Source: Candidatus Pacearchaeota archaeon (lineage in GTDB: Archaea > Nanoarchaeota > Nanoarchaeia > Pacearchaeales > GW2011-AR1). From it: a DNA stretch of 33,130 bases. Every line of letters begins with the position of its first letter. Within the stretch, counting starts at the first letter, position 1. The notes under the pieces were generated by a model, which did no database searches, was not told the DNA's origin, and saw nothing but the letters and a program-made list of their open reading frames with translations. Location of the stretch: assembly GCA_023228245.1 (NCBI GenBank), contig JALOBN010000032.1:1-33130 (forward strand). The letters are read 5' to 3'. Positions 12,048-27,851 of this stretch are shown one piece after another. A program made the translations under genes and the position numbers.

Positions 12048-13423
12048 TTGATTTCAACTGCTTTCTTTTCAAACCAGTTTGTCCTTGTCACCTCAGCCTC
12101 TACACCGAGTGGAGCCACAATCCACGCCCAATGGTCCCTCACGTCTACGGTCATTATCTGCTTGACCATTTGCAGATAATCATCCAACTCCTCCTCAGGT
12201 ACATCGGCCAAGATGCTATCATGGATCTGCCCCACCACCAAAGTCTGCATCTTTCGTTTCTTGATTTGCTTCACCAACTGGATCAACGACCACAGCAAAC
12301 AATGAAACGCTGGCCCCTGCACTGGATAGTTGTACAACTCATTTCTGCTGAACACCCCAGCACACACAAACCCAGTCATGGTCCGAAACCAACCACGCTT
12401 CTGGTACAGCTTCAACCACTCGTCTTTCTTCCTACTCCATGTTGGAAACTTCTCATTGAATCGCTTCTCTACCTGACAGATGTGATGCTCAAATGTCCCC
12501 TTGACCGGCTTGTCGTGGGAGTCACAGGCTCCAAGTTCAGAAATACCAGCACGTCGAAGGTGCTTGAAAAGATCAACACCATCAGCCGTAGTCAATTCAG
12601 CACTCTCAATGGCGTTCCAAAGTTCCCTGGCCACATTGCAATAGTAGGAGCCGTAAAGTTCAGGAAAGACAAACCCATTCTTGGCATAGAATCTGGGCTT
12701 CTTTGTTACCTGCTCCACGGGCATCTTGTAACACTCGGCAGCCATGTCCCTGTGAATATCCAGGGTTGAATCACTGGCATACCTGATCATGGCTGGATCC
12801 GACCAGAAGCACGATGCTATGCGAAATTCAAGAGCCGAATAGTCCACCTCCACCAACACCCGCCCTGGTCGTGGAATAAAGCACCTACGGATCATCCCAC
12901 CAATCTCTGGGTCACGAATTGGAATGTTCTGGAAATTGGGACTGTCACAACTTCCTCGATACGTCCTGGTGAGATGCAAATTGAACGATGGGTGGAGCAA
13001 CCCATCACACACCTCACGTCGAATGCCTACCAAATAAGTGCTACGCAGCTTCTTGTGTTTCTCCACTCGAATCCACTTCTGGACGAATGGCAAATCAATT
13101 CCCTCAAGTGCGTCCACGTCCACCTTGTCCCGCCCGGTCTTGGTAGCGTGTTTGGATTCGTATCCCATCTCCTTGAATAGAATACTAGCCAGTTGGGAAC
13201 GGCTACTTAGATTGGACTTATCGCCCCATCGCCTCTTCCATGTCTTCCAGACCTCATCTGTTTTCAGTTCACCTGTCAAATCCTCAATCTGAACACCCAC
13301 TTCGTCTATGGTTCGATTTATTCGTTCCACATCCATGCAAATCCCATTGGATTCCAGCACGGCAAGGGCCAGACAACCGTCTTGGAACAGCTTAAGGGCT
13401 TCTTTAGAAGGCGTGGCTACCAT
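12044..13423 (-). CDS. Family A DNA polymerase, polymerase domain only
   Basis: The 459-residue chain begins at the thumb (QDGCLALAVLESNGICMD) and contains motif A near 194 (VEVDYSALE), motif B (KKPRFYAKNGFVFPELYG) and motif C with H401-D-S. It has no exonuclease domain; that domain is in the next gene upstream, 13512-14726. In SPO1-like and other phage polymerases both parts are one chain, so this gene looks split at the exonuclease-thumb boundary. ATG 13423 follows AGGTGG, which lies in the flank of stem-loop element B. The two proteins would have to associate for proofreading. Confidence 0.9.
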   Translation of the reverse strand: MVATPSKEALKLFQDGCLALAVLESNGICMDVERINRTIDEVGVQIEDLTGELKTDEVWKTWKRRWGDKSNLSSRSQLASILFKEMGYESKHATKTGRDKVDVDALEGIDLPFVQKWIRVEKHKKLRSTYLVGIRREVCDGLLHPSFNLHLTRTYRGSCDSPNFQNIPIRDPEIGGMIRRCFIPRPGRVLVEVDYSALEFRIASCFWSDPAMIRYASDSTLDIHRDMAAECYKMPVEQVTKKPRFYAKNGFVFPELYGSYYCNVARELWNAIESAELTTADGVDLFKHLRRAGISELGACDSHDKPVKGTFEHHICQVEKRFNEKFPTWSRKKDEWLKLYQKRGWFRTMTGFVCAGVFSRNELYNYPVQGPAFHCLLWSLIQLVKQIKKRKMQTLVVGQIHDSILADVPEEELDDYLQMVKQIMTVDVRDHWAWIVAPLGVEAEVTRTNWFEKKAVEIK

Positions 13424-13427
13424 AACA

Positions 13428-13522
13428 CCCACCTGTCGTCGCCTAGGGTCGCCCCTAACGTGTTTCTTTTGGTTCTTGGTAACTTATACCATCCTGGACT
13501 GTTTGAAGGCATTAGGGGCTAA
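13428..13522 (+). repeat. Stem-loop element, copy B
   Basis: Homologous to copy A (3331-3411) but in the opposite orientation. Shared features in order: the flank CCCACCTGTCGTCGCC, then GCCCCTAAC, the hairpin TGGTA-N5-TACCA (13477-13491), and TTAGGGGCTAA. The outer stem is 8 bp plus imperfect pairs. There is a 10-base insert relative to copy A near 13442. The element separates the exonuclease and polymerase genes; its arm supplies the last codons and stop of the exonuclease gene, and its flank supplies the polymerase ribosome site. Confidence 0.8.
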
Positions 13523-14726
13523 TCTGGTGGCCCATGGCCTTCATCTGCTTCTGGGCAACGAGATACTCACAAATCGAATCCATGCCGTTGTACACCAACA
13601 GCGTGCCCAAATCCAATTCCTTGATTCTGTTCTTCTTGTACCCACCCCCATCGGAGTGAAGGTATGGACCCACAACCATGTCATATCCAGCCTGTCCCAT
13701 CAACACAAATGACTGGAACTTCACCGACGTAATCAATGGTCGATAGTCAAGCACGTGAGATGTAACCATCCCATCCCACACCCAATTGCGAACACCGTGT
13801 CCAAACTCCTTGCGAGTCCATCGCTCCTCAAACTTGATGTTGGCCCCGATCTTTGCGATGGGGCTTATCAGCAGTTCCTCCATTGCTTTGATTGCTTCGC
13901 CATGCCAGGGGAATGCTATGGTCTTCTTGCCCTCCCAACACACTGAACAGCACACAATCTGGGCATCCCTATGATCGGGCTTCAGCATGTTGGTCTCGTA
14001 ATCGAACGCTACAGTCCCACCCCGCTCCGTCATCCTTCTCAGTATCTTGGCTGCCTTGTCTGCCTCGTACACACACTCCACCTGCTTTGCTAGATCAAGC
14101 ACCCCATCAGTCCAGGGACGTTCTTCCAATACAAAGGCTGATTCCAAATGACGCTTGAACCATAGGTCCAAAGCGGTATCGTGTTTTCTCAGCAGGTATG
14201 CTGGATGAAAGGTTGGACAAATCCATGCATTCAATTGCTGCGACGGTATCTGCCAACCAGCCCAACGACCAATCCCTCCAGGGGCTTCCCCTGCTTTCCA
14301 AAGCTGACCAATGAGGGACTTGACCGGCGACCCACCCAGCAAGATGATAGTGATGGGGTTCAATTCCTTGATAGCCTTGTTCAGATTGGGCCGACATGAT
14401 TCAATGTGAACATCGTCTACCATGTTCTTTGGTGGGCGACAGATCACAGCATTGGTCTTCCAACAGTCCTTGTCCAAACTGATGCCAATCTCATCCAGAA
14501 CCTCACGTAGATACAGCCCACTCTTTCCGATGAGTTGGGTTCCTTCCTCATCCTCTTGTTCGCCAGGGGCCTCAGCAACGACCAGAACTTTTCGTCGGCC
14601 CTTTCCTGTTACTGGCATCTTTGGGGACTTGCAACCCTTGTTCAGCTTGCACAGCCCACAACGAGCTATGGTAGGAACACGCTCGGGCTCAGCGACAGTA
14701 GATAGTGAGAAGAATCCAACGTGCAA
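13512..14726 (-). CDS. Uracil-DNA glycosylase-like plus 3'-5' exonuclease fusion (split polymerase part)
   Basis: TTG 14726 has a perfect GGAGG 7 nt upstream; the earlier frame overlaps the previous gene. The 404 residues hold a family 4-type UDG domain with C23, C26, C96 and C111 spaced for an iron-sulfur cluster, the AEAPGEQEDEEG motif and HPAYLLR. From about 237 a proofreading exonuclease follows: D242-x-E244, N296/E300 and Y379-x3-D383. The chain ends 20 residues after the last motif, where other phage polymerases continue into the thumb. UDG-exonuclease-polymerase fusions are known from SPO1-like phages. Confidence 0.85.
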   Translation of the reverse strand: MHVGFFSLSTVAEPERVPTIARCGLCKLNKGCKSPKMPVTGKGRRKVLVVAEAPGEQEDEEGTQLIGKSGLYLREVLDEIGISLDKDCWKTNAVICRPPKNMVDDVHIESCRPNLNKAIKELNPITIILLGGSPVKSLIGQLWKAGEAPGGIGRWAGWQIPSQQLNAWICPTFHPAYLLRKHDTALDLWFKRHLESAFVLEERPWTDGVLDLAKQVECVYEADKAAKILRRMTERGGTVAFDYETNMLKPDHRDAQIVCCSVCWEGKKTIAFPWHGEAIKAMEELLISPIAKIGANIKFEERWTRKEFGHGVRNWVWDGMVTSHVLDYRPLITSVKFQSFVLMGQAGYDMVVGPYLHSDGGGYKKNRIKELDLGTLLVYNGMDSICEYLVAQKQMKAMGHQISP

Positions 14727-14727
14727 G

Positions 14728-14922
14728 TTATTCCTCCTTTGGATTCTCAAGTTCAGTCTTCTTTGCCCACGCTTCCTTGAATGGTAGATTCCTATCCACC
14801 ACATCGTACCGATTATCATCTTCCAAACCAGCTATAGGACGCACCTCGTGTCTGGGCCATCCACGGCGGGCCATATTATGCTTCCAACGAATAATGGCGT
14901 AGAGGGAACTGTCAAGAGTCAT
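14728..14922 (-). CDS. Unknown protein, 64 aa
   Basis: A 64-residue charged protein from ATG 14922 with GAGGA 9 nt upstream, overlapping the end of the clamp gene by 11 bases. Its last codons contain the ribosome site of the UDG-exonuclease gene (AAGGAGGAA before the stop), so translation of the two is probably linked. Basic-aromatic N-terminus (AIIRWKHNMARRGW). Not recognised. Confidence 0.65.
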   Translation of the reverse strand: MTLDSSLYAIIRWKHNMARRGWPRHEVRPIAGLEDDNRYDVVDRNLPFKEAWAKKTELENPKEE

Positions 14923-15928
14923 TGTTTTTGTCCTCAACTACTGTACAAAACACGCACACCCATTTCCCCGATTGCAATTTCAATCGACCTTCCCCAATCA
15001 CACACTTGTTGGATCTTTTGGGAAGCTCCAACAACAAATTGGGGGATATGGTAAATTGAACGTCTCCGCCGTCATATCCTTCAACCTTCTGAACCTCACT
15101 GTACCATCCATGAGGGCCTCTCCCAGTCATCTTCATTTTACCACTGCGTAAATCCACAGTGATTAGGTTGTCATCGTCAGATTTGCTGAATATCTTGGCC
15201 TTGTCAATGGCCTCCCCCAAGCCCTCCGGCCAGTAGACATCGACCCCGTCCACCTCAAGGTATTTGTCCAAACTGGGATATGCTCGGTTATACCTGCGGC
15301 AACTGATTGTCAATCCCGCAGAATTGCGAAAATGAAGCCAGTTCTCGGTCTGACTCAATTCCGTCACACCCATACCCATAGCACTCTTCATGGCCGACCT
15401 GCGAACCAAAATGGAATCGTCCAACCCCGTGACCAACGAGTATCGAGCTATCTGAAATTGGTCTGCAGCCTCAACATACTTGGGGTGCAGGTGAATGCAA
15501 GTCAGTACAAACTCTGATTCGTTATTGCTAGCACACCCCTGAACAATACCGATGGCGTCGGATAGCTCCTTTGGTAGTTTGATCCACTTGTCTGGATTCT
15601 CAATGCCGTCCACTGGCAAAGTGATCTCCGCAGACATCCGTATTCCTGCCTTTCGCTTTCCGGCCTTGACAAGAAGTTCACCATCAGATTGCTCGATGCT
15701 TATTTCATCTTCGTCCAGCTTCTGAAGCAGAGCCAACAACGGGTCTGCAACCACAGCACCTGTGATACCCAACTTGCACTCAATGGAGCAAGCCACTTCA
15801 TCATTGAACGTGGTGACCCGACCATCCTGAAACACAAAAGACCCAGACTGCTCTATGACTTCCTTGGACGACAGTCCAGGAAACACAGCCATCAGTTGAG
15901 TCAACAACGACTTACGATTGATCAGCAC
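14912..15928 (-). CDS. DNA polymerase sliding clamp
   Basis: A 338-residue protein starting at GTG 15928, with GAGGAG 7 nt upstream. Its length and repeated beta-alpha-beta pattern match a beta-clamp type processivity factor; segments such as GELLVKAGKRKAGIRM and ENWLHFRNSAGLTISCRRYN are typical strands. The ring keeps the polymerase on DNA and is loaded by the AAA+ protein at 11094-12047. It overlaps the end of csrA by 17 bases. A DnaN-like three-domain clamp is more likely than a gp45-like one by length. Confidence 0.7.
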   Translation of the reverse strand: MLINRKSLLTQLMAVFPGLSSKEVIEQSGSFVFQDGRVTTFNDEVACSIECKLGITGAVVADPLLALLQKLDEDEISIEQSDGELLVKAGKRKAGIRMSAEITLPVDGIENPDKWIKLPKELSDAIGIVQGCASNNESEFVLTCIHLHPKYVEAADQFQIARYSLVTGLDDSILVRRSAMKSAMGMGVTELSQTENWLHFRNSAGLTISCRRYNRAYPSLDKYLEVDGVDVYWPEGLGEAIDKAKIFSKSDDDNLITVDLRSGKMKMTGRGPHGWYSEVQKVEGYDGGDVQFTISPNLLLELPKRSNKCVIGEGRLKLQSGKWVCVFCTVVEDKNNDS

Positions 15929-16106
15929 TTTTCTTCTCCTCTTCAAATCGGTGAATGGCGTCGAACACCTCGCGACGGTGGACCGGAACCTCCTTGGGCG
16001 CTTCAACGCCTAGGCGGACCTTGTCCCCGCGGATCTCCACGACTACGATCGTAATGTCATCGTTGATGACAATGCTCTCGTTTTTCTTCCTACTCAACAA
16101 TAGCAT
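15912..16106 (-). CDS. csrA: CsrA-family translational regulator
   Basis: The 64-residue protein has the complete CsrA pattern: MLLLSRKKNESIVIND start, central IRGDKVRLGVEAP, then VPVHRREVF with the RNA-binding Arg, and a helical tail. CsrA dimers bind GGA motifs in messenger leaders and block or stabilise translation. A phage copy could reprogramme host carbon metabolism or regulate phage messages with GGA-rich ribosome sites. ATG 16106 has GGAGGG 8 nt upstream, itself a possible autoregulatory target. The sequence resembles planctomycete CsrA in my memory, which I cannot verify. Confidence 0.92.
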   Translation of the reverse strand: MLLLSRKKNESIVINDDITIVVVEIRGDKVRLGVEAPKEVPVHRREVFDAIHRFEEEKKSADQS

Positions 16107-16130: not shown

Positions 16131-17090
16131 TCACAATCCAAAACTGGCGATTTTGCCACGTCCCAACGATTTCAGATTCTTAAGGGCCTGACAGTAGTAG
16201 GACTTCTTCAATTCCACCCCTACCGACTTCCTACCCATTGACAACGCCTCGTATACCTCTGAACCAACTCCCATAAATGGAGTCAGTACCACTTCTCCCG
16301 GATTGGATCGTAGTACCAACAAACGATCAATCACATCCAATTGCAATGGATGCATATGTCGCTCATCCTCGTCCTCTTTACCCTCCTTGAATGGAAGCAC
16401 TCGATCAATCCGAATATCATCCCAGAAAGCTGACGCATATTGCCTCCAAATCCAATGAGATAACCTATTCTCCCGTTGAAGTCCTTTCCAATTCCGATAT
16501 TGAAGTAATTCATAAGGAACCTTCCTAGCACCAGCATAATCCATGAGTCCCTCTTTATGAGCAATGGGAATTGAATTGTCCCCCTTCTTACGAAACAGCA
16601 ACACACAATCAGCAGAAGCCACATCGCACAACGATGAATCATCTATGACCGTCTTGTGGGCCAATCCCCGCGCCATTGTTCTATTGCGAACACCCAAGGG
16701 CTCTTTCCACACAAAATGACGAGCCCAAAACCACCAACCGCAACTCTCATGCAGCCGTATTATCTCACCAGGGAAATCGATCAATCCCCGCTCACCTTTC
16801 CTGGGTATGTCCATACAATGAACCGCACTGAATCTTCCTTCTAATGTCACTCGATGGATTTGCTCAACCGCAAACTTGTAATGTTGAAAAAACTCCTCAT
16901 GCGTACGACAATTGGACAAATCCCTTGGAGAAGAGGAGTAATGATATAGGCAACCTCCACCATCGGCAGCAAACGGTGGTGAGTAAATCGACAAATGAAC
17001 AGAGTTGTCTGGAACGGTTGGCAATATCTCACAACAATCGCCGTTGTATATTGCAAACTCATCCCCAACTTTCTGAGAAATCACAGCCAT
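16131..17090 (-). CDS. DNA methyltransferase, SPPF type (N4-cytosine or N6-adenine)
   Basis: In the 319-residue product, catalytic motif IV is S37-P-P-F40 (IYSPPFA), and the SAM-binding FxGxG-type motif is near 286 (TPFMGVGSEVYEALSMGR), so motif order is IV then I, a beta-class enzyme. SPPF leans towards N4-cytosine methylation but does not exclude adenine. The gene overlaps the SF2 helicase by 10 bases. There is no restriction nuclease beside it, so protection from host restriction or part of a DNA-modification system is likelier than a classic R-M pair. Confidence 0.85.
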   Translation of the reverse strand: MAVISQKVGDEFAIYNGDCCEILPTVPDNSVHLSIYSPPFAADGGGCLYHYSSSPRDLSNCRTHEEFFQHYKFAVEQIHRVTLEGRFSAVHCMDIPRKGERGLIDFPGEIIRLHESCGWWFWARHFVWKEPLGVRNRTMARGLAHKTVIDDSSLCDVASADCVLLFRKKGDNSIPIAHKEGLMDYAGARKVPYELLQYRNWKGLQRENRLSHWIWRQYASAFWDDIRIDRVLPFKEGKEDEDERHMHPLQLDVIDRLLVLRSNPGEVVLTPFMGVGSEVYEALSMGRKSVGVELKKSYYCQALKNLKSLGRGKIASFGL

Positions 17091-18445
17091 GACGGCACCT
17101 TTTCTTCCTCTGGAAATACGGTGTCTGGATCTATTTGGATTGCTTGCGTCATATTAGCAATCAAAGAACCAAACATCCTATCCACTTGCTTCGACTTTCT
17201 CCTCAAATTGTCCAACACCCCACTAGACCCATTTGAGGTAACAATTGACACACCCACAGAACTCTTCTGACCAAACCTCCAACAACGTCGTACCGATTGG
17301 TAATACTGCTCCCACGAATGTGAGGGGAAATAAACTACATTATGACAATGCTGCCAATTCAATCCAAAGCACCCAATCTTTGGTTTGGTTACCAACACTT
17401 TCAATTTACCAGATTGAAAGTCCAGCAGCCGTTCTTCCTTCACGTCATCTGGCATACCCCCACTGACCTGCAACGATCCCTTCACCAACTTCTCCATCAA
17501 ATCAGCTTCATCATTCAAGAAACACCAAACTACAGACGGCCCGTCGTTCCCAATGACTCTATCCGCAGCCACTTCACATCGACTTCTTATAGTCCCCCTT
17601 CTGTCGTCTCGTTGTTCCTGTAAGGTTCTGTTCTGGGAACAAAAGAATCTTCCTGGCTTGGGTTTGCTACATTCCACAACCACCTCTTCCTCCACCAACG
17701 GAGGCAAAACAAAACCATCGTCAGAAAATCCCAAATCGGACGGTTTGCGACAACCTCGCAACCAAGAACACACCCACTTCCAAAACGGACGCTCGGCATG
17801 CCCCCGAAACCTGTAGGTTTTCCTTCCCCATCCCAAGAAATCCTTCACGTCATCCTCCTTGAAAAACCTCGACAGCATGTCATGAAATCCCAAGTAACCC
17901 AATGCCTCGGATGACGTACCCAATTCAAAGTAATCGTTAGGAGCAGCTGTTGCCGTACAAAGCAACCGATACGGCATTACTCTCATGAACTCCGTCAACT
18001 TGAACTTCGTTTTCCCGTTGAAGTTCTTCAGGATGCTGCTCTCATCGCATACCACCCCTGAGAAATCGGATGGGTTGAAGTATCCCAACCTTTCATAATT
18101 AGTCACCACAATTGTTGGTTTGTTGGGTAACTTTCCCTGACGAGAGCGAAAACAAGGAACACCAAACTTATCCCCCTCCCGAACTATCTGCTCCGATACT
18201 GCCAATGGAGCCAAAAGCAATACAGATTTGTTGGTTTTCTGCACAACATTGGAAGCCCACACCAATTCCATTGGAGTCTTTCCCAAACCACAATCCGCCG
18301 ATATTTCAGCCCTGCCCTGACGTATTGCCCAATCAGTCAACTTCTGCTGAAACCCAAACAAGAAATCAGGCAACCAAATGGGTTTGAATCCATGAGGACT
18401 CCCCACCTGACTCTTCTGCTCCAAAAACTCACGATACAGCGTCAT
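17081..18445 (-). CDS. SF2 helicase paired with the methyltransferase
   Basis: The 454-residue enzyme shows the SF2 motifs in order: I at 51-57 (DCGLGKT), II at D134-E-S-S, III (CTATAAPN), V (GCFGLNWQHC) and VI (QSVRRCWRFGQ). It resembles SNF2/type III-like translocases but is short and has no nuclease. ATGA overlap with the upstream GNAT-like gene and overlap with the methyltransferase indicate one functional unit. In such pairs the helicase may expose or scan DNA for the modifying enzyme. A second, different SNF2 protein is at 29369-30769. Confidence 0.85.
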   Translation of the reverse strand: MTLYREFLEQKSQVGSPHGFKPIWLPDFLFGFQQKLTDWAIRQGRAEISADCGLGKTPMELVWASNVVQKTNKSVLLLAPLAVSEQIVREGDKFGVPCFRSRQGKLPNKPTIVVTNYERLGYFNPSDFSGVVCDESSILKNFNGKTKFKLTEFMRVMPYRLLCTATAAPNDYFELGTSSEALGYLGFHDMLSRFFKEDDVKDFLGWGRKTYRFRGHAERPFWKWVCSWLRGCRKPSDLGFSDDGFVLPPLVEEEVVVECSKPKPGRFFCSQNRTLQEQRDDRRGTIRSRCEVAADRVIGNDGPSVVWCFLNDEADLMEKLVKGSLQVSGGMPDDVKEERLLDFQSGKLKVLVTKPKIGCFGLNWQHCHNVVYFPSHSWEQYYQSVRRCWRFGQKSSVGVSIVTSNGSSGVLDNLRRKSKQVDRMFGSLIANMTQAIQIDPDTVFPEEEKVPSWL

Positions 18446-19233
18446 TCCATTCCTCCACTACTGCCATTACTGCTATATATTTGGTCTATACGCAATGGGT
18501 TTAGCTTCATCTTGAATTGCTCCAACCCAGCCAGGCCCAAGCACCCACCATCATTCACCAAACGATTGGACTCCTGAACAAAGTCACTGGTGTAAAAGCA
18601 ATAGCGCAGATACTCCTGAATGAACGGTTCTCCAGAATCAATACACACTCTGAAATTGATGTACTTCCAATTCAGATCGCAGGCATTCAGTCCCACCAAC
18701 TTCTCATCAGAAAACAACCCCCAACGATGTTGACCAAACAAAGCAATCCGAGACATTGTCTCTGGATCATGAATTGTATCGCCCTTCGCCCAAACCTCCA
18801 ACAGATCAGCAACTTGATCTTCATGTACCCCCTCAATCAAAGGTCTGTAGGAATATGGAGTACCTACCCTGTTGGGCCACTTCCTTATGTTCTTTCGGAA
18901 CGTAGACCAATGGTGCCCAGACAAATCCAAGAATCTATTGGGGTCATAAATGAATTGGTAATCCAAAAACTCCGTACCTGTGATGTTTGGCAGTCCTGCA
19001 TACACTTTACGTGCCGGGAACAAATGACCCAAGCCATCCAACGGAGGCAAAAACCAACCATACTCCCCATACTCCACCAAACCCCAAACACCATTTGGCA
19101 GGCTTAGTGGTGCCACCCCCTTGTGATATAGGTATTCAGCACTCATGAAGAAATTGGGATCAACCCCCAACACCCTCATCCTGTCCAGATACTGTGCGAT
19201 CGGAAATGCCAAATCCCGTTGATCTTGACTCAT
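18442..19233 (-). CDS. GNAT/DUF2156-like acyl- or aminoacyltransferase
   Basis: The 263-residue protein has a late region typical of GNAT-fold transferases of the DUF2156 kind: HRWGLFSDEKLVGLNACDLN, then VNDGGCLGLAGLEQFKMKLN, where the LGLAGL/FK pattern is the family mark. Members transfer acyl or aminoacyl groups, for example to lipids. Here, with radical-SAM and PLP enzymes, DNA or a base precursor is a possible acceptor, as with the GNAT-like Mom protein of phage Mu. ATG 19233 follows GGAG; ATG 19248 is an alternative. It overlaps a 62-residue upstream frame. Confidence 0.55.
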   Translation of the reverse strand: MSQDQRDLAFPIAQYLDRMRVLGVDPNFFMSAEYLYHKGVAPLSLPNGVWGLVEYGEYGWFLPPLDGLGHLFPARKVYAGLPNITGTEFLDYQFIYDPNRFLDLSGHHWSTFRKNIRKWPNRVGTPYSYRPLIEGVHEDQVADLLEVWAKGDTIHDPETMSRIALFGQHRWGLFSDEKLVGLNACDLNWKYINFRVCIDSGEPFIQEYLRYCFYTSDFVQESNRLVNDGGCLGLAGLEQFKMKLNPLRIDQIYSSNGSSGGME

Positions 19234-19348
19234 TGGCTTTTGCTCCATCCTTCTTGCTGTCGGACTTTGGCCCACTGCCTTTCTCTTTAATCAACCGATC
19301 AATCAACCGACGGCTCACCCCGCCGCTCTTTCTGCTTTTGCCTCCCAT
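19160..19348 (-). CDS. Small basic protein overlapping the GNAT-like start (62 aa)
   Basis: ATG 19348 lies immediately after the upstream stop, with AAGGAG 9 nt away. The N-terminal half is basic (KSRKSGGVSRRLIDRLIKEK) and likely to be real, while the last 38 residues lie over the GNAT-like gene in another frame. It could couple translation of that gene. The phage Mu com-mom pair has the same geometry, a small regulator overlapping a GNAT-like modifier, but this protein lacks Com's cysteines. Confidence 0.5.
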   Translation of the reverse strand: MGGKSRKSGGVSRRLIDRLIKEKGSGPKSDSKKDGAKANESRSTGFGISDRTVSGQDEGVGG

Positions 19349-20080
19349 CTATTTGGTCTCCTTGTCCTTGATAATCTCCCCACCTAGATTATCGTACACA
19401 CACCTGCTCAATACCCCCAGCATCTTCAATTTGTCGTTGCTGGAACTGAAATGAACCACGTTATCAGCCCCAAACCAAAGAGTCAAAGCGTCTGCAAACG
19501 AGAACAACGACATAAAGTCATCTGTGCGAATGCCTAATGGCCCAAAGTCCTCCAATTCCTCAGTCAACAGCCCCAATCCCCCAGACGATCCATCCCGTTC
19601 CAACTGAATCAACGACCCATTGTAAATGTTTCGTTGGGCAATCACCAACTTGCCTTTTCGACTGCTGAACTCAATGTGGGACAGTTCCTCATTAAGCAAT
19701 GCCCGAATGCTCTTGTTCAAGAAAACCCCCGTGCCGCTGGGCTTGCCAAAGCCCTTGAAGATACCCACAATCTCCTCGGGAGAAAACTTGGGGGCTCGAC
19801 AACTCTTGATGCGAACGAATCCTGATTCCTTCTGAACAAACTCCACAAATCCATTATGCTCTCGAAGCTTGTTGCTGTCATAATCAGCGGCGTCAAAGCT
19901 AATGGGATGAGCAAAAGGAGCCTCCTCCGGTCGGAGTGTGAACCTAATCAGCACAGTGTGATCCTGATTGAATATGAATACATTGGATCCGATGGCATAA
20001 ATGGTATTCTTCAACCTACCACTCTGGTGCAATCCTGCGGCCTGAGCAAACATAGACTCTACCCGTGGGGCTATTTTCAT
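19349..20080 (-). CDS. Unknown protein, perhaps clamp-like (243 aa)
   Basis: Two halves of this 243-residue protein seem to share a strand-rich plan (AIGSNVFIFNQDHTVLIRF and FSSRKGKLVIAQRN), and it ends with a helix and SNDKLKMLGVLSRCVYDN, loosely like clamp-type folds, but I do not recognise a family. It begins by ATGA overlap with the first radical-SAM gene and ends directly before the small basic protein. Its place suggests a structural or substrate-binding part of the same cassette. Confidence 0.6.
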   Translation of the reverse strand: MKIAPRVESMFAQAAGLHQSGRLKNTIYAIGSNVFIFNQDHTVLIRFTLRPEEAPFAHPISFDAADYDSNKLREHNGFVEFVQKESGFVRIKSCRAPKFSPEEIVGIFKGFGKPSGTGVFLNKSIRALLNEELSHIEFSSRKGKLVIAQRNIYNGSLIQLERDGSSGGLGLLTEELEDFGPLGIRTDDFMSLFSFADALTLWFGADNVVHFSSSNDKLKMLGVLSRCVYDNLGGEIIKDKETK

Positions 20081-21576
20081 CGCACCAATTCCTTTCTGAA
20101 ATCGCTGTCGTCAAATTGCCAAATCAACCCATCCTGGTTTGTGCCAACAACCTCTAAGCCACGCGCCCACTGTTGACTATAGGCCTCGCTTGTACCATCA
20201 GCATTCCACAGCTGATGGACTTCCAACTCAAGACCATCAGATAGAAACCCTCCCTTGGCTTCTACCCACGACTTGAAATCCCCCCATGTGGATGGCGTCA
20301 TCCCACGGTCTTTCACAAACCGGGCTGCCATCACCGTGCAACCCCAATTCATTCCGCCCTCGAACCAATCACCCACCTCACAACACACAGATTGATCATT
20401 ATCCGGTACATTACCCATATCAAACGAGGAGCAGCTGAAGCCATGTTCCCTCCACATGGACATGAACTCACCCATCAGCAGCGACCCCAGCCCCTGACTG
20501 TCGCAACCCAACAAAAACAACCTCTCCCAATCCAAACCCATGTCAAAGAAAGACTGACGTATTCCAGGATTCTTGGCCGTCCAACTGTATGTATCAAAGG
20601 TCAAATGACTCACACCTGCATCCTTGAGGTCAGCCATATAACGATCCACTTCATCCGGAGGGTCGCTCAAGAAAACCAGGAAAGGCTCAATGCGAGCCAC
20701 CACTCTCACCCCAGCGGAGGAAAGCTGTTTCATAGCCCAAATACGTCTATCGTAGGATGGAGCCCCTGGCTCTAGCTCTTTCAGCAAAGCATTGTTGCTA
20801 CTGATCAAGGTCATATGAACTGCCGCCTTGCCTTGGTTGCGAGCCAATGCCTCCACATATTTATCATATCCAACCACGTCACTCTTGGTATTGATCATAG
20901 TTGGATAGGATTGGTCTGCCAAGTATTCCAACATCTGCAAACTGATTCCCAACTTCCTCTCTATCGGCAAGAAGTCCTCAAACCGAATACCCAATCTCAT
21001 TGGGATTTCAGCCGCAACAGCACGTTGTAAGGCTGCCTGAAGTCCGCCAGTGCATTCCTGCCGCCCACCTCTGGAAGCATACTTCTTACCAGAAGCACTG
21101 ACACGGGCCACCCTTTTGTTGACTTCCTTGTTTGGGCTGCCCCCACTCAACATATCCAATGACTTCCCCCGAAAACCCATCAACTTATCCAACTCACTCT
21201 TGCAGTAATCTACATTACAATGGCGCAATCCCACAGTCCGAGCGTTGTCGAAGAAGGCAGTGTACAGAGTGCCCCGAAATGAATCAGCAAAGCAATACTT
21301 GCAACCAAACGGGCACTTCAAACTGTCGTACACATCCATATTGAGAGGCATGGGGCATGCCGCCGCTCGGCAACTGACCTCCACAAAACTCCCAATCTCA
21401 TCAGCCTTCAACAACCGCTCACTGCTGGCCCATTGGCCATCAGACAACTTGAATTCCTTGTATCCCTTCTTGCGTCCCTTTTCTTGAACAGACTGCTTTG
21501 ACCCCCCTCGCACCAAAGGCAATGTGCGGGGCACCATCTTTGCAATCTGATCCCTCAGAGCATAATAATCACTCAT
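20077..21576 (-). CDS. Radical SAM enzyme 1 (SplB/COG1533-like)
   Basis: The cluster motif is C88-x3-C92-x2-C95 (CPFGCKYCFA), which holds a 4Fe-4S cluster that cleaves S-adenosylmethionine to a radical. The 499-residue length, TKS and RIEPF elements later in the barrel, and several C-terminal cysteines (VCCEVG, GCTV) suggest a SplB-like barrel with an extra C-terminal domain. ATG 21576 has GGAGGA upstream and overlaps the preceding gene by 8 bases. Substrate unknown; the nearby DNA enzymes make a nucleic-acid substrate plausible. Confidence 0.8.
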   Translation of the reverse strand: MSDYYALRDQIAKMVPRTLPLVRGGSKQSVQEKGRKKGYKEFKLSDGQWASSERLLKADEIGSFVEVSCRAAACPMPLNMDVYDSLKCPFGCKYCFADSFRGTLYTAFFDNARTVGLRHCNVDYCKSELDKLMGFRGKSLDMLSGGSPNKEVNKRVARVSASGKKYASRGGRQECTGGLQAALQRAVAAEIPMRLGIRFEDFLPIERKLGISLQMLEYLADQSYPTMINTKSDVVGYDKYVEALARNQGKAAVHMTLISSNNALLKELEPGAPSYDRRIWAMKQLSSAGVRVVARIEPFLVFLSDPPDEVDRYMADLKDAGVSHLTFDTYSWTAKNPGIRQSFFDMGLDWERLFLLGCDSQGLGSLLMGEFMSMWREHGFSCSSFDMGNVPDNDQSVCCEVGDWFEGGMNWGCTVMAARFVKDRGMTPSTWGDFKSWVEAKGGFLSDGLELEVHQLWNADGTSEAYSQQWARGLEVVGTNQDGLIWQFDDSDFRKELVR

Positions 21577-21898
21577 GCTTATCCTCCAACAATCCAACGA
21601 CATCTGGTATATTGAACTTGCCCTCAGCTACCAATCCCTTGCCATCGGAATGCTGCTCAATCCAACGAAGGAACATCCAATTGCTTTCTTTTCCACTGCC
21701 CACATAGTTTCTACCATCGTACAGTACCTTGTTGTTACTCTTGAGTGTCACCATTATCCGGCCTCTACGTACTTTCAATTTGGCGGTGGCTGTAGCAACA
21801 ATCAAATCATCAGTGCTGATGCCCCTGCCAAACGGGCGATAGCGATTGATTGCCCATAGAATCTTCTCTCTCGTCACTTGTCTGTTTGAGTACGCCAT
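21569..21898 (-). CDS. Unknown protein, 109 aa
   Basis: ATG 21898 follows GGAG, giving 109 residues that overlap the PLP-enzyme end by 25 bases. The N-terminus (NRQVTREKILWAINRYR) is a likely helix pair, followed by a basic strand (KLKVRRGRIMVTLKSNN). No catalytic motif. It may be an accessory or substrate-carrier protein of the cassette, but I cannot support a function. Confidence 0.6.
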   Translation of the reverse strand: MAYSNRQVTREKILWAINRYRPFGRGISTDDLIVATATAKLKVRRGRIMVTLKSNNKVLYDGRNYVGSGKESNWMFLRWIEQHSDGKGLVAEGKFNIPDVVGLLEDKHE

Positions 21899-22752
21899 GA
21901 TTCCAACTCCAATTGGGAAACCTCTCTTCCTATGTTCCAAAACAACACAGTACCATTCATACTTTCTACGTGCGTTGCTAGCCACTCCCACGCTTTGGCG
22001 TCATAATAGCTATGGGTGGGAAAAGGTATGGGATAAGCGCTTGGTTGAGAATACTCCCAACCCGGATTTACCAATTTCAAACATGATCCAAAAAACCCTC
22101 CCCACACCCTTCCCGATTTGGTCTCTATCTTTCGCTGCTTGCCTTGAATGTGCCCGTCCCGACTCATCACTCCCACAACCCTGCCATCCCCGTTAGACCA
22201 ACCACTGAGTATGCCAGCACATACTGTACCACTACCTACGCACACCACCGTAATTGCCGGACGAATCTCAGCCATGGTCATTCGCCACTGCTTTGATGTC
22301 TCTTCAATCGTTTCCACTAAGGGCAACCCAAGATCCAACATGTAGGAATGATTGTAATTCTTGAACAGTACCTTTCTATTTACATTGTAGGCAACTCGGG
22401 CCATGCCGGGACGTATGGGTATTATCTCAGCATCAAATTGTTTCCACATGTCTGAGCAATACAAATACAGATCCAACGGCTTCTTGAAAGTTGGGGCAAA
22501 TATCACACTGCGTATTCCCAAGTACCTTGCGCAATAAGCCACACCCCAACCAGCCATACTCACGGATGTCTCAACATACCCCACGGTGCGTATCCCTTGA
22601 TCCACCAGACTCTCCATGTGACGCAACAACCCCCGCATCTTGCTAAATGGAGGGGCAGGTAAATCACAACACTTATCTTCACGCTTAACATGAACTTGCC
22701 TACCTCGCAATTCAATCACTTCCACCGGAGTGTATTCTGCCAATCGAATCAT
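21874..22752 (-). CDS. PLP-dependent enzyme, fold type II (tryptophan synthase beta family)
   Basis: From ATG 22752 the 292-residue chain has the type II layout: VKREDK, a lysine candidate at K38 (PPFSKMRG) for the Schiff base, a substrate loop (ETSVSMAGWGVAY) where usual SxxNH residues are changed to Ser and Met, and the phosphate-binding GSGTVCAG loop near 173. Relatives do beta-replacement or deamination on Ser, Thr, Cys or ACC. Altered loop residues suggest a different substrate. ATGA coupling to radical-SAM enzyme 2 points to one pathway. Confidence 0.75.
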   Translation of the reverse strand: MIRLAEYTPVEVIELRGRQVHVKREDKCCDLPAPPFSKMRGLLRHMESLVDQGIRTVGYVETSVSMAGWGVAYCARYLGIRSVIFAPTFKKPLDLYLYCSDMWKQFDAEIIPIRPGMARVAYNVNRKVLFKNYNHSYMLDLGLPLVETIEETSKQWRMTMAEIRPAITVVCVGSGTVCAGILSGWSNGDGRVVGVMSRDGHIQGKQRKIETKSGRVWGGFFGSCLKLVNPGWEYSQPSAYPIPFPTHSYYDAKAWEWLATHVESMNGTVLFWNIGREVSQLELESWRTQTDK

Positions 22753-23816
22753 AGCCCAGCATCCCGCAAAGTGAAGAAATCGCAAGTACCATCCCCCATA
22801 ACTATTCTCTCTCCTTGGGCCTTGTCACCAATACCCTCCCATGTTTTAGCCAATACCCCATCACGGTCAACCCCCTTCTGAACCAAATGCCTCCAAAAGT
22901 GGGCATTGTACCGAGACGGATTCGGCACCGTGATGCCGCAACATGTGTTAGATCGGGCTCTCCAATCAGGATTCACATTCACGAAGTCTGGACACCCCAA
23001 CACCATGCCCTCTTCTGCGGCAATGTTGCATAGATCTCTTTGAATGGGACGCCATATTTTGTCTTGATTGTGCTCCCATATGCGCTCCAAATCCAGCCCA
23101 ATCTCCACAAATCTCTTGGCCACGTGATCATTCATGTGAAGATTGTAGGTGTTATAACTCCTCACTCCAGCAGCCTTCAGCCTCTTCAGCATGTCCCGAA
23201 ACATACCCGGCGTATGATACCCTGGTATGAATGGTTCACCATTCACTCCTACATTCCACCCACGCCTGATCCATGACTCAATGAGTTTCAGCCTAACGTC
23301 TATAGGAGTAGTCCTACCTCGTTCCAGCACCTCTCTGTCACTCTCCGCACCTGGAGTGATGACCGGCATAATCGTCAGGATTCCCAACTCACTAGCCTTA
23401 GACATTACCTCGTCATCCTCAGATAGGTTGTCGAGGAATTTGGTTTGAATCACATAAGACCAATTCAATTTGACCAACAGCAACTGAATCCTTCTAGACA
23501 CTCTATGAATCAACTCAGCCGGTTGGTATGGATCTGTCTTGTTACCCAAACGCAATGTCTTCTTGAGTTTCATCGCCCAAGCCAACGACGTTTGGGGGTT
23601 GGGATTTTTCAAACCATTCATCAACTTTTGACCAACTTCATCTGGATCAGCTGGTCGAAGATCCATGCCCCAAGTCCTGTTCAATCTCCTCAGGTAACAA
23701 TGATGGCAGTCTATTTCGCAGTTCCAGTAACTGTCAATAGAAAACGGCAGTGGGCAATAGAGACAATCGCCTCTAATGCCCACCGCCGCACGGTAGTGTT
23801 TGTCGTTGTTGCTCAC
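22749..23816 (-). CDS. Radical SAM enzyme 2 (SplB/COG1533-like)
   Basis: The GTG start at 23816 has GGAG 8 nt upstream and lies just after the previous stop; longer readings overlap that gene by 90 bases. The 355-residue product has C33-x3-C37-x2-C40 (NCEIDCHHCY), an extra C18-x2-C21 pair, and the GNKTDPYQPAE segment found in SplB-like radical-SAM proteins, followed by VIQTKF and the TPGAES strand. It differs clearly from enzyme 1, so this is not a recent duplication. Substrate unknown; neighbours are the PLP enzyme and a SAP-like protein. Confidence 0.82.
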   Translation of the reverse strand: MSNNDKHYRAAVGIRGDCLYCPLPFSIDSYWNCEIDCHHCYLRRLNRTWGMDLRPADPDEVGQKLMNGLKNPNPQTSLAWAMKLKKTLRLGNKTDPYQPAELIHRVSRRIQLLLVKLNWSYVIQTKFLDNLSEDDEVMSKASELGILTIMPVITPGAESDREVLERGRTTPIDVRLKLIESWIRRGWNVGVNGEPFIPGYHTPGMFRDMLKRLKAAGVRSYNTYNLHMNDHVAKRFVEIGLDLERIWEHNQDKIWRPIQRDLCNIAAEEGMVLGCPDFVNVNPDWRARSNTCCGITVPNPSRYNAHFWRHLVQKGVDRDGVLAKTWEGIGDKAQGERIVMGDGTCDFFTLRDAGL

Positions 23817-23821
23817 GCAAC

Positions 23822-24394
23822 CTACTCCACTGACGCTGGGGAAACCACTTCGCCAGCCACGTTGATCAATCCGAAGCACACTCCCGCAGTCAGGGCAATG
23901 TTGATCGCCCACTTGGATTCCTTCAAGTTATCACTGCCGCCGTTCTTGACGTACAATTGATTGGACTTCTCAATCAATTGGGTTACATTGGTCTTACTGA
24001 CCCCCTTCACCGTGAGAAAGGCAGATTCCAACCGACTCATGGACTTGACCTTGCCCTCCAACTTCTTGCCAGCCTTCTTGCCAGGAATAGCCTTGTTGAT
24101 CTCGGCGTTCAACTCCTCGGCCGTCTTGGTTTCTCCCTCGTCACCAACCTTGGGTGCAACCTCGTTGTCATCCACCTTCTCCTTGACAATTTCCACAACT
24201 CCCTTGTTCTTGACGATCATGGCCAGTAGTTTCTTCTGATCCTCGTTCTCCAAGTCCTCAGCCTCCTCACCTTCGGGATCCAACTGGGCAATGGTCAACA
24301 ACTTCTCTTCCATGCGAGCCTTGTTCCACTTGTTAGCGGTTTTGTACCCGAGGTTCTCAGCCAACGCAACGATCTCTTGACGTGTCACTTGCAT
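23822..24394 (-). CDS. SAP-like N-terminal, otherwise unknown protein (190 aa)
   Basis: The N-terminal 35 residues (TRQEIVALAENLGYKTANKW) look like a SAP or LEM-type helix-loop-helix DNA-binding motif. An acidic, charged linker follows, then a C-terminal region with alternating helices ending in a hydrophobic stretch (NIALTAGVCFGLINVAG). ATG 24394 has GGAG upstream, and it is the first gene after a probable promoter at 24451-24481, so it heads the modification cassette. Likely DNA-binding, function otherwise unknown. Confidence 0.6.
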   Translation of the reverse strand: MQVTRQEIVALAENLGYKTANKWNKARMEEKLLTIAQLDPEGEEAEDLENEDQKKLLAMIVKNKGVVEIVKEKVDDNEVAPKVGDEGETKTAEELNAEINKAIPGKKAGKKLEGKVKSMSRLESAFLTVKGVSKTNVTQLIEKSNQLYVKNGGSDNLKESKWAINIALTAGVCFGLINVAGEVVSPASVE

Positions 24395-24450: not shown

Positions 24451-24481
24451 ATTATCGGATTACTGATAACGCCCCCATCAA
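24451..24481 (-). promoter_or_regulatory. Candidate promoter with imperfect operator-like repeat
   Basis: GATAAT (24456-24451) with TTGATG (24481-24476) at 19-base spacing forms a moderate promoter facing the SAP-like gene. A 7-bp inverted repeat with one mismatch (24452-24458 with 24463-24469) overlaps the -10 region, as in the stronger promoters. The 113-base gap also has a GGGAnnnnTCCC hairpin at 24428-24439. No good terminator for the helicase gene upstream was seen. Confidence 0.45.
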
Positions 24482-24507: not shown

Positions 24508-25908
24508 TCAGAAAATACTGACCATCGCAGGGCAAGCCACATCCAAACACCCAGCGACAACCACTGATTTGCTTTCACGAAACGTCCCACTACGCCGCAC
24601 CGTCCAATTCAACCGCTGCACACCCATATCCTTTTCGGCATCTGTACAGTTGATGCCAATCATGCCATTGACATGAGCCAGCTTGGTCTTGCGTCCACTG
24701 AAGTGTTTCCTGGTCAAGGTCTGTCCACTGTTGTTGTAGGCCCCTGCATTGGACTGGCTGGCAGTCAGCAGCAGACAATGAAACTCTTGACTCATGCGAC
24801 GCAGTTGCTTCCAGGTCTCATCAATCTGTTCCAATGGATCACGTGTCCCAGACGGTGGGGCCAAGATGTCAGCGTAGTCGAGCACCATCACATCCGCCAC
24901 CCAACCCTCCCGCTGCCAATCGGTCATCACTGACCGCAAGCCATCTACGTTGATTGTGCTGTTTGGGTAACAACTCACCCGCAGCATGTCCCTGCCCCTA
25001 CACACCCTCCGAAATGCCTTGAAGCATTCGCTGGGAGTTAATTCCTCCCAGAACCTGCGATCCTTGGTCTCCACCACTATCCGTTCCTTGTTGTTTTCAT
25101 CGATCCTTTTCTTGATGGATGTTGGGAACTTGCACAGCATGGGCTTCATGGGTCTACGTAGCACCCGCTGACCTAGACGCTGTAGCACCTCGTCCTGCAT
25201 CAAGTCCCCGGCCTCGAAGTAGGCCACACGACAGCGGGCCTTGATGGCTCTGTAGGCCAATTCCAGAAGCCAGAATGATTTGCCTGTTTTGTCTGGCCCC
25301 ATGAACGACCACAATGTGCCTCTAACCAGTGCATCACCAAAGAATCGATCCAGGCCATCCGAAAACGACATCATGGATCTGTTGCGATCAGTATCGAATG
25401 CCTGACGCCATGGTTCGTATTCCTCGGCTGGTTTGGCCAAGCTACCAGTGCCCAATTCAATCCGGTTGATGTTGGCCATTGTGGCTATGGCTTCAGCTGG
25501 TAGATTCTCCTCAAGTCGTTCAGTGGCCTCCTCTATTGCCTTGCCAGCCAGCACTCGATTGAAGTACAACCCCGCAACATCCAACAGGTAATCACTAGAT
25601 GGTGGATCAGTACTGGCCCAATCATCAGACACATAACCCAGGAACCTCTCAATCCCCTTGGCTGTGTTGGCATCGACATCGTTCTTGTTGGCCCAGCGTT
25701 CATATATGTCCGTCAATTGACCGTTGGGAGGAGTGTCATACTTGGCCAGATGCTTTACGCACCACCCACCCACAAGGTTGGCCCAGTCATTGTCAAACAG
25801 ACCGCCGTCCTTCCACTGGCTGGCTATGCGGGCACAGACTACCCTATCAGTGGCCATGCCAGCCAAAACCTTTCTCAGTTCGTTTCCATCATACCGAGAC
25901 GATTTCAT
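24508..25908 (-). CDS. DnaB-like replicative helicase
   Basis: A 466-residue RecA-fold helicase with Walker A at about 204-211 (GPDKTGKS), Walker B (VMVLDYADIL), and the ASQSNAGAYN motif typical of DnaB-type or T4 gp41-like enzymes. It would form the hexamer that unwinds the phage fork and recruits the primase. ATG 25908 overlaps the initiator gene by 20 bases with only a weak GGAA site, so coupling is probable. The N-terminal 180 residues are helical, as expected for the DnaB ring collar. Confidence 0.88.
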   Translation of the reverse strand: MKSSRYDGNELRKVLAGMATDRVVCARIASQWKDGGLFDNDWANLVGGWCVKHLAKYDTPPNGQLTDIYERWANKNDVDANTAKGIERFLGYVSDDWASTDPPSSDYLLDVAGLYFNRVLAGKAIEEATERLEENLPAEAIATMANINRIELGTGSLAKPAEEYEPWRQAFDTDRNRSMMSFSDGLDRFFGDALVRGTLWSFMGPDKTGKSFWLLELAYRAIKARCRVAYFEAGDLMQDEVLQRLGQRVLRRPMKPMLCKFPTSIKKRIDENNKERIVVETKDRRFWEELTPSECFKAFRRVCRGRDMLRVSCYPNSTINVDGLRSVMTDWQREGWVADVMVLDYADILAPPSGTRDPLEQIDETWKQLRRMSQEFHCLLLTASQSNAGAYNNSGQTLTRKHFSGRKTKLAHVNGMIGINCTDAEKDMGVQRLNWTVRRSGTFRESKSVVVAGCLDVACPAMVSIF

Positions 25909-26752
25909 ATTCAATTTCCGGTTCGTCTGTATTGTCCCCGTCGCCATTCCTGCTACGACGCATGGCACCAGCAAACTTGCCCTGCTTGAACTTTGTCCTG
26001 AACGATGAAGCTGAGAACGCCTCTACACAATACTCCTCACCAATATGCTTGGCATACCACTCGATGGTTTCACGGATCAGCTTCTTGTCGATCTTGTCAA
26101 CCTCACGCATCAGACAGAATTGTTTAGACCACTGGTTCAAATCTGCCCGGCTGTTGACCTTGATTATTGATGATATAATTCTGTTCAATTCTTCTGCTGC
26201 ACGTTGGTCCCATTTGGACGGTAGGTGCTTGCGTCTGGAAGGTGGAGGAACGCACATAACGTCGCCATCCGAAGGTGGCGACATAAAGTCTTTCTTATCT
26301 TCATTAGTATAGGTATTATATACCGTACTCTGGGGTACGGGGGGCCGTACTTTAGAGTACGGCCCCGTACTATCTAGTACCATTTGTTTTTGGTCGTTGT
26401 AGTGTCTGTTATTTTCAATCCAAATGTTGGCAATAGTGACCACTACACGTTCGGATCCGTATTGGTTTTCTGTCTTGTTGACCTTGATGAAGTGGTGGTT
26501 TCTCAACTCTTCACGGGCACTTAGCAGTGTAGACTTTGACATCGACAGATGCTTGCAGAGGGTTTCAAGTGACTGGTAGCACTCGCCCCGTTCCCAGCAT
26601 ACTCGTTTGTACCACACATATAAGAGGACCGCGTGCTTACTCAGGCTCTTGTCCATGCAACAGTCTATCACCATGTTTGGAATGGCTGTGTAGTGACTGT
26701 GCACTGACTCGTCAATGATGTTGTTGTTGTCTGGTTCTTGGTTTGTTGTCAT
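25889..26752 (-). CDS. Replication initiator with winged-helix domain (lambda O-like role)
   Basis: The 287-residue protein has an N-terminal winged HTH (about 25-115; LCKHLSMSKSTLLSAREELR), a polar linker (about 125-165) and a helical C-terminal domain. The linker is encoded by DNA with three GTAC palindromes, the arrangement of lambda gene O, where origin iterons lie within the initiator gene. It directly precedes the helicase, which such initiators load. ATG 26752 has GGAGG 10 nt upstream and is preceded by a long structured leader. DnaD- or RepA-type initiators are the alternative. Confidence 0.72.
   Translation of the reverse strand: MTTNQEPDNNNIIDESVHSHYTAIPNMVIDCCMDKSLSKHAVLLYVWYKRVCWERGECYQSLETLCKHLSMSKSTLLSAREELRNHHFIKVNKTENQYGSERVVVTIANIWIENNRHYNDQKQMVLDSTGPYSKVRPPVPQSTVYNTYTNEDKKDFMSPPSDGDVMCVPPPSRRKHLPSKWDQRAAEELNRIISSIIKVNSRADLNQWSKQFCLMREVDKIDKKLIRETIEWYAKHIGEEYCVEAFSASSFRTKFKQGKFAGAMRRSRNGDGDNTDEPEIEYEIVSV
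26312..26380. other. Candidate replication origin: phased GTAC palindromes inside the initiator gene
   Basis: GTAC occurs at 26325, 26335, 26347, 26357, 26367 and 26377, that is every 10 bases (once 12). They form three palindromes of the type GTACTN4AGTAC (the first imperfect) centred 22 and 20 bases apart, so on one helix face. The middle one is extended to a 10-bp perfect arm. A fourth palindrome (26312-26324) adjoins an A+T-rich stretch (26285-26322) that could unwind. Layout matches lambda ori; the role is inferred. Confidence 0.65.
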
Positions 26753-27186: not shown

Positions 27187-27567
27187 TCAGCCAGCTTCCA
27201 ACATGTCCTCATACAACACACCACCACCTTTCTGGTGGCGGTCTGTGACAATGGATATGGGATTGCCCACAATTCTGGGGTTGTTGATTCCCTTGGACTT
27301 AGATGCCCTACCCTCTTTGTAGATACTGTCATTTATCTGACGCACAATTTGCTGGGTTGGGAACTCAGCATGGAGTGGATTGGGTGGGCCTGCTAGAGCC
27401 TTCCAGTATGCCTCATTGCCCCAGACAGCAAATTCAAATCCCAGTTTGGCATCCAGAAGTGCGTCCACCTCAGGTAGGTCAATTGAGTCTGCTTCTGTTA
27501 TGGCATCCAGCAGCTCTGTCGATCCCACGGGGGCATTCACAATCCGTTGCTTCAAATCCTCGTTCAT
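27187..27567 (-). CDS. Unknown protein, 126 aa
   Basis: ATG 27567 overlaps the GIY-YIG gene stop (ATGA), so the 126-residue form is preferred over the longer frame to 27633. The N-terminal half is acidic and helical (LLDAITEADSIDLPEVDALL), with an aromatic centre (EFAVWGNEAYWKAL) and a basic C-terminal half with a glycine turn (RHQKGGGVLYED). Not recognised. The place between nuclease and initiator gives no clear clue. Confidence 0.65.
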   Translation of the reverse strand: MNEDLKQRIVNAPVGSTELLDAITEADSIDLPEVDALLDAKLGFEFAVWGNEAYWKALAGPPNPLHAEFPTQQIVRQINDSIYKEGRASKSKGINNPRIVGNPISIVTDRHQKGGGVLYEDMLEAG

Positions 27568-27848: not shown

Positions 27849-27851
27849 CAC

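Follow-up and report, generated by a model that had tools for sequence, protein, structure and literature searches.

A phage replication operon with paired radical-SAM enzymes and a predicted clamp-fold protein, a candidate new variant of DNA hypermodification

What does a compact run of nine genes do within the replication region of a phage? The run occupies positions 16131-24394 of the window, the whole 33,130-base stretch of DNA analysed here, which is a phage-like contig, and encodes two radical S-adenosylmethionine (radical-SAM) enzymes, SAM1 and SAM2, together with a pyridoxal phosphate (PLP) enzyme, a DUF2156-type protein, a predicted sliding-clamp-fold protein (X4) and four others. An earlier note, made from the sequence alone, had read it as a cassette for an amino-acid-derived base modification made by a route not yet described. 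Our analysis favors the reading that this phage operon, lying among replication genes, attaches a group derived from an amino acid to a DNA base, thymine being the likeliest, without the entry enzymes of the phage M6 type, with a probability of roughly 0.53. We have moderate confidence that the cassette represents a new variant of phage DNA hypermodification. The genes of the run and its two flanks are:

23822-24394, minus strand: X9, 190 amino acids (aa), the first gene of the run, accessory, with no Pfam or PHROGs match
22749-23816, minus strand: SAM2, radical-SAM enzyme, 355 aa, GTG start
21874-22752, minus strand: fold type II PLP enzyme, homologous to phage M6 gp52
21569-21898, minus strand: X6, about 109 aa, with no significant family match
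20077-21576, minus strand: SAM1, radical-SAM enzyme, 499 aa, the defining gene
19349-20080, minus strand: X4, predicted PCNA-fold (sliding-clamp-fold) protein, 243 aa
18442-19233, minus strand: predicted DUF2156/MprF-C-terminal-type transferase, 263 aa, the GNAT-like gene of the earlier note
17081-18445, minus strand: superfamily 2 (SF2) helicase, accessory, phrog_62 at E 2.8e-45
16131-17090, minus strand: N6/N4-type DNA methyltransferase, accessory, PF01555 at E 1e-14
14912-16006, minus strand: flanking DnaN-type beta clamp, start possibly further downstream, best E 1e-20 to beta clamps, phrog_947 processivity factor
24508-25974, minus strand: upstream flanking DnaB-like replicative helicase, start possibly further downstream, phrog_19 at E 4e-23

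The nine consecutive open reading frames (ORFs) are real: all lie on the minus strand and are free of internal stop codons, and the chance of each frame staying open is between about 9e-5 and 3e-11, with X6 as the exception (5e-3). The X6 frame, 21569-21901, begins with ATC and has its first ATG at 21898, which makes its overlap with the PLP gene 3 bases shorter. From 24394 down to 16131, the junctions measure +5, -4, -28, -8, -4, +115, -4 and -10 bases. The described coupling by ATGA or short overlaps therefore holds for seven of the eight junctions, which are overlaps or, once, a gap of 5 bases, and fails at a single break of 115 bases between X4 and the DUF2156 gene. The possible promoter at 24451-24481 is a weak candidate, consisting by eye of TTGATG, a 19-base spacer and GATAAT; a promoter scan confined to 16-18-base spacers listed no site there.

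A SAM1 profile scan detected 76 viral loci at 43-66% identity, and a SAM2 profile scan detected 56. The ORFs of the 76 loci and of the window, 77 loci altogether, were clustered. Several loci are cut by contig ends and some are near-duplicates, for example, L009/L010, L024/L029, and L062-L064, so that counts over the 77 loci are not independent. SAM1 is found in 77 loci, X4 in 70, the DUF2156 protein in 69, the DnaN-type clamp in 66, SAM2 in 56, DnaB in 54, the clamp loader in 52, the polymerase in 51 (its cluster also holds M6), and the PLP enzyme in 34, excluding M6. The order SAM1-X4-DUF2156-clamp is kept in 65 of the 65 loci that have all four genes, as a check of gene order in other viruses, proposed beforehand, revealed. 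X4, the DUF2156 gene, the clamp, SAM2 and PLP share the strand of SAM1 wherever they are present, and DnaB does so in 53 of 54 loci. The usual site of the cassette is between DnaB and the DNA clamp and polymerase genes. Conservation in so many viral contigs makes chance untenable as an explanation of the gene run, and the core of SAM1, X4, DUF2156, SAM2 and PLP recurs inside the replication operon.

This comparison redraws the unit. X4 belongs to the core and had been left out of the combination on which the earlier note relied, which also missed the replication setting. The DUF2156-like, SF2 helicase and DNA methyltransferase family calls hold; the helicase and the methyltransferase were rejected as core members, their families being found in only 5/77 and 4/77 loci, respectively. 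Each of the four methyltransferase loci also has the helicase family, and a different N6/N4-methylase cluster (k42) occurs in four other loci. The X9 cluster is found in 6/77 loci including the window, and X6 belongs to no shared neighborhood cluster.

The cassette families look viral, judging from where homologs are found. G013, a 66.6-kb relative, encodes terminase, portal and head proteins, and G005, the contig of locus L005, encodes head, tail and baseplate proteins; the cassette carriers are therefore tailed phages. Terminal repeats of about 120-180 bases were present in four of the ten long contigs examined (L004, L005, L029, and L045; 58-74 kb) and in none of the other six, and these four contigs are probably complete because of them. 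Of 7998 candidates scored in a protein search, 507 matched SAM1. A bacterial origin of the cassette was rejected, a single scan of GTDB genomes having yielded only three small contigs of metagenome-assembled genomes. Among named phages, SAM2 and the DUF2156 protein had no match at E 1e-3. Three weak partial matches to SAM1 (26-31% identity) were seen in the unannotated fecal phage records MT838272.1, MT837948.1, and MT835521.1. The literature searched contained no earlier description of the gene set, although a mention in Lee 2018, Lee 2022, Wen 2024 or Iyer 2013 stays possible.

The two radical-SAM assignments made from the sequence were borne out. The CX3CX2C motif is invariant in the alignments of SAM1 (22 rows) and SAM2 (47 rows), as is a CC pair near the C-terminus of SAM2. 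PF04055 matched SAM1 at E 1e-6, just under the curated cut-off, and SAM2 at E 0.005, well under it. SAM1 and SAM2 are paralogs (profile match E 7e-19), and the radical-SAM protein gp53 of phage M6 is matched by the SAM2 profile at E 2e-10 and by the SAM1 profile at E 4e-6. From these profiles, SAM1 and SAM2 are apparently distant kin of gp53, yet a different paralogous pair. Both have extra conserved cysteines beside CX3CX2C, which could bind an auxiliary cluster. A PDB sequence search with the X4, SAM1 and SAM2 profiles returned nothing significant. Hint/intein domains lie in or beside SAM1 of relatives (e.g., P0002, P0028, and P0078; L062-L065, L068, and L077), and a homing endonuclease adjoins in some loci; because of these domains, SAM1 appears to be a target of inteins.

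X4 and the DUF2156 protein were placed by modeled structure. The X4 model, with a mean predicted local distance difference test (pLDDT) score of 90.6, fits the PCNA and Rad9-Rad1-Hus1 (9-1-1) folds over about 215 residues at 7-13% identity among the 50 matches listed, and X4 is accordingly predicted to have a sliding-clamp fold. Its similarity to the neighboring DnaN-type clamp is faint (E 3e-4, 38% probability). X4 shares its fold with PCNA and the 9-1-1 clamps but has few basic helix residues and a separate DnaN-type clamp nearby; to our knowledge, two clamp-fold proteins within one operon are unusual. The model of the 18442-19233 protein (pLDDT 93.5) is closest to DUF2156 and MprF structures; FemX and peptide synthases that depend on aminoacyl-tRNA come next, and Pfam gives a match to the modeled family below threshold. 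The protein is thus predicted to have the DUF2156/MprF C-terminal fold, and the suggested likeness to the acetyltransferase Mom was rejected in favor of this DUF2156/MprF/Fem-type fold. The overall fold is shared with the C-terminal domain of MprF (lysyl-phosphatidylglycerol synthase), DUF2156 and FemX, whereas the cassette protein consists of one short domain and is encoded among phage replication genes.

The PLP enzyme provides the link to a known DNA modification pathway. It matches phrog_7093 at E 1.5e-47 and is similar to 65 phage records, always at a coverage of 80% or more, with M6/YuA relatives foremost and a top identity of 34% over 92%. The altered loop that had been noticed is confirmed: the lysine motif FSKxRG is kept, and the loop reads ETSVSMAGW against DTYHSKAGW in M6. 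The M6-like loop HSKAGW is present in four cassette loci, L002-L005. An unrooted PLP tree of 37 rows contains a 27-row cassette clade that includes the window with support of 100/100, and the EKU1 enzyme is on a very long branch. M6 encodes together an amino acid:DNA transferase (ADDT, gp51), the PLP enzyme (gp52), the radical-SAM enzyme (gp53), a 5-hydroxymethyluracil (5-hmU) DNA kinase (HMUDK, gp55) and a thymidylate-synthase-like protein (gp58). In the work of Lee and colleagues of 2022, gp52 is said to be a decarboxylase and gp53 an isomerase. The DNA of M6 contains 5-(2-aminoethyl)deoxyuridine (PMC6449724), and, in a paper on phage SN1, the M6-type cassette consists of hydroxymethylase, Nmad5, two aGPT-Pplases, kinase, radical-SAM and PLP proteins (PMC9476957).

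In common with the M6/YuA-type pathway, the cassette has tailoring enzymes, a location near DNA polymerase, this homologous PLP enzyme of fold type II and a radical-SAM enzyme that is a distant relative, but it has two radical-SAM paralogs where M6 has one, and DUF2156/MprF-type and PCNA-fold proteins in addition. The M6 entry enzymes were searched for with profiles in the records of 46 of the 76 viral loci, and the M6 control was positive each time. Neither HMUDK (PF18723) nor ADDT (PF18724) was matched in any of the 46 records, and 43 of them had no match to pyrimidine hydroxymethylase. The HMUDK, ADDT and thymidylate-synthase families were not reported among 42 scanned ORFs of the window, itself a fragment. 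Tet/JBP hydroxylase, another source of 5-hmU, was likewise matched in 0/46 records, which says little because no control rang. There are 67 records with an M6-like PLP enzyme, of which six were tested for ADDT and HMUDK. Both were found in five of the six: M6, EKU1 (matches in fragments), Pam3, RHph_I72, and CN2. The sixth, ERS-1, had neither; this record of 175 kb is unverified and contains pieces of PLP, and it counts against a strict PLP-ADDT link. With neither HMUDK nor ADDT found by the profiles, the cassette appears to differ from the known pathway. The claim of such a difference, made in the earlier note, stands to this extent and is joined by the homology to M6, whereas its unit had to lose the genes at its end and to take in X4.

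Between DnaB and SAM1, the cassette has a variable slot, which is occupied across the 77 loci by PLP (34), the k14 family (16), an aldo-keto reductase (PF00248; 15), a DUF362 protein (11) and, more rarely, a flavin adenine dinucleotide (FAD) oxidoreductase (PF01266; 4) or the acetyltransferase-like k41 (sub-threshold PF13480; 4). The aldo-keto reductase is accompanied by k14 or the FAD enzyme in 15/15 cases and occurs together with PLP in one locus only. The k14 family has only weak matches (E 0.12) to SAM-dependent methyltransferases. The DUF362 protein is never found alongside SAM2, and all 11 DUF362 loci have at least two ORFs of the SAM1 cluster, some of which may be pieces of intein-split genes in L068, L070, L077, and L078. 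In L012, L013, L020, L027, L033, L066, and L075, the DUF362 protein is in the place of SAM2 and there is a second SAM1 copy. Such variation suggests that one core product is tailored in combinatorial fashion.

How might such a set of proteins act? We propose that the group would be added to the base during or just after replication. The central carbon chemistry would fall to the two related radical-SAM enzymes, with the thymine 5-methyl group or a simple derivative as its probable starting point, and the 5-hmU kinase and ADDT known from M6 would then be dispensable. The DUF2156/MprF-type protein would transfer an aminoacyl group or provide it, X4 with its predicted PCNA fold would keep the enzymes on newly made DNA at the fork, and the variable enzymes would finish the side chain, here with the PLP enzyme homologous to that of M6. 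We infer DNA as the substrate, the identity of the base, the order of steps, the role of X4 and the aminoacyl-tRNA donor. A fully specified version, in which thymine in DNA is itself the site where the paired radical-SAM enzymes form a C-C bond, the amino acid is delivered by an aminoacyl-tRNA-dependent transferase and a dedicated PCNA-like clamp, distinct from the DnaN-type one, couples the process to the fork, is doubtful as a whole.

The alternative that survives best is an M6-type route in disguise, in which 5-hmU comes from the host or an unrecognized enzyme and is primed by a kinase and a transferase that likewise went unrecognized, and only the later isomerization, decarboxylation and acylation fall to the cassette. 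The PLP homology and the gp53-like radical-SAM enzymes are consistent with it, and the DUF2156 protein could stand in for ADDT as amino-acid donor. Many genes are also unassigned; in the scan of G005, 49 of the 59 ORFs with 130 aa or more were covered, and the families considered were the best 25 of 30 for Pfam and the best 25 of 44 for PHROGs. We nevertheless judge it unlikely: HMUDK and ADDT had no match in the 46 searched records and thymidylate-synthase-like proteins were matched in three, against 5/6 for both HMUDK and ADDT in the PLP-bearing records, and the ten scanned representatives of recurrent cassette genes had no kinase family match.

Modification of RNA (e.g., tRNA) or protein during infection by an aminoacyl-tRNA-dependent step would suit the MprF/Fem fold, which is typical of aminoacyl-tRNA users, and radical-SAM enzymes are common in tRNA modification. 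The usual site between DnaB and the DNA clamp and polymerase genes, the clamp-fold partner and the DNA pathway of M6-type phages, in which kin of the PLP and radical-SAM enzymes act, make this quite improbable. Least likely, and by our estimate very improbable, is clamp-tethered DNA repair by two radical-SAM enzymes reversing pyrimidine damage like spore photoproduct lyase, which shares the CX3CX2C core with SAM1: the UDG-exonuclease gene nearby, the faint, non-significant profile match (E 0.58) and the database name "DNA repair photolyase" speak for it, but SAM1 is longer and has extra conserved cysteines, direct reversal leaves no obvious task for such partners as the PLP enzyme, the aldo-keto reductase, the FAD oxidoreductase and the DUF2156 protein, and the same name is attached to SAM1-type proteins and M6 gp53 alike, the latter being part of a thymidine modification cassette.

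Several observations weigh against the preferred reading, in which the operon adds an amino-acid-derived group to a DNA base without M6-type entry. The PLP enzymes of L002-L005 and L052 are outside the cassette clade and are still parted from the M6 type by an 89/90 branch; with this split, the tree allows a passage of the PLP gene between systems, at most. The PLP gene was not found in 43 of the 77 loci, some of them truncated, so that the link to M6 holds for some members of the family only. No radical-SAM enzyme of known reaction is matched significantly by the sequence of SAM1, whose best PDB profile match is spore photoproduct lyase. The helices of the window X4 model carry few lysine or arginine residues, unlike a ring lining DNA, and visual comparison of up to 26 tails per family showed no common C-terminal motif for clamp binding. 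Enzymes that have nothing to do with nucleic acids can have MprF-like folds as well. Of the thymidylate-synthase-like matches (PF00303; 3/46 records), one is strong (E 5e-126) and one has internal stop codons. Finally, profile searches can miss diverged entry enzymes, and the 46 records come without a completeness estimate.

The carboxymethylcytosine system CmoX/CmoY of phage S-B43 is likewise a phage linkage of amino acid to base without 5-hmU chemistry. It uses carboxy-S-adenosylmethionine (Cx-SAM), a C5-methyltransferase homolog and an ATP-dependent ligase, none of which was named in the cassette family scans, where they were not searched for individually. If the preferred reading is correct, a widespread group of uncultivated phages modifies a base of its DNA by a chemistry whose entry differs from that of the known hydroxymethyluracil route. 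New enzymes for DNA chemistry would then come from the radical-SAM pair, the variable tailoring slot and the clamp-fold protein, which would also offer a direct test of replication-coupled modification. In the fully specified version, the aminoacyl-tRNA-dependent transferase would also tie translation intermediates to DNA chemistry. Because the M6 entry genes are apparently absent beside homologous tailoring genes, the question can be tested with a few purified proteins.

The picked genes of the window from 2174 onward are all on the minus strand. Those for replication comprise the DnaB-like helicase, a Toprim-domain primase candidate, the DnaN-type clamp, a family A polymerase and a clamp loader, and further genes encode the uracil-DNA glycosylase (UDG)-exonuclease, a gp32-like single-stranded DNA-binding protein, and RecA-like and SbcC-like proteins. 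At 13512-14819 (minus strand), a UDG-superfamily domain is fused to a family A 3'-5' exonuclease domain, in a gene separate from the polymerase domain at 12044-13432. The gp32-like protein at 9267-10442 (minus strand) has a very long tail rich in aspartate and lysine. No credible gene was seen in 1-2170, where four ORFs were scanned without an obvious Pfam family and there was no Rfam match; neither tRNA genes nor Rfam families were found in the window as a whole. A small GIY-YIG domain protein is encoded at 27564-27851 (minus strand), the PF01541 match being to one of 23 scanned ORFs and the ORF being assigned by eye. Among the relatives, the cassette phage G005 has phosphoadenosine phosphosulfate reductase-like and pyrimidine-dimer glycosylase-like genes, and an ORF at L156:16947-17576, beside head genes, matches a PHROG named alpha-2,3-sialyltransferase, its cluster being present in seven of the ten long contigs.

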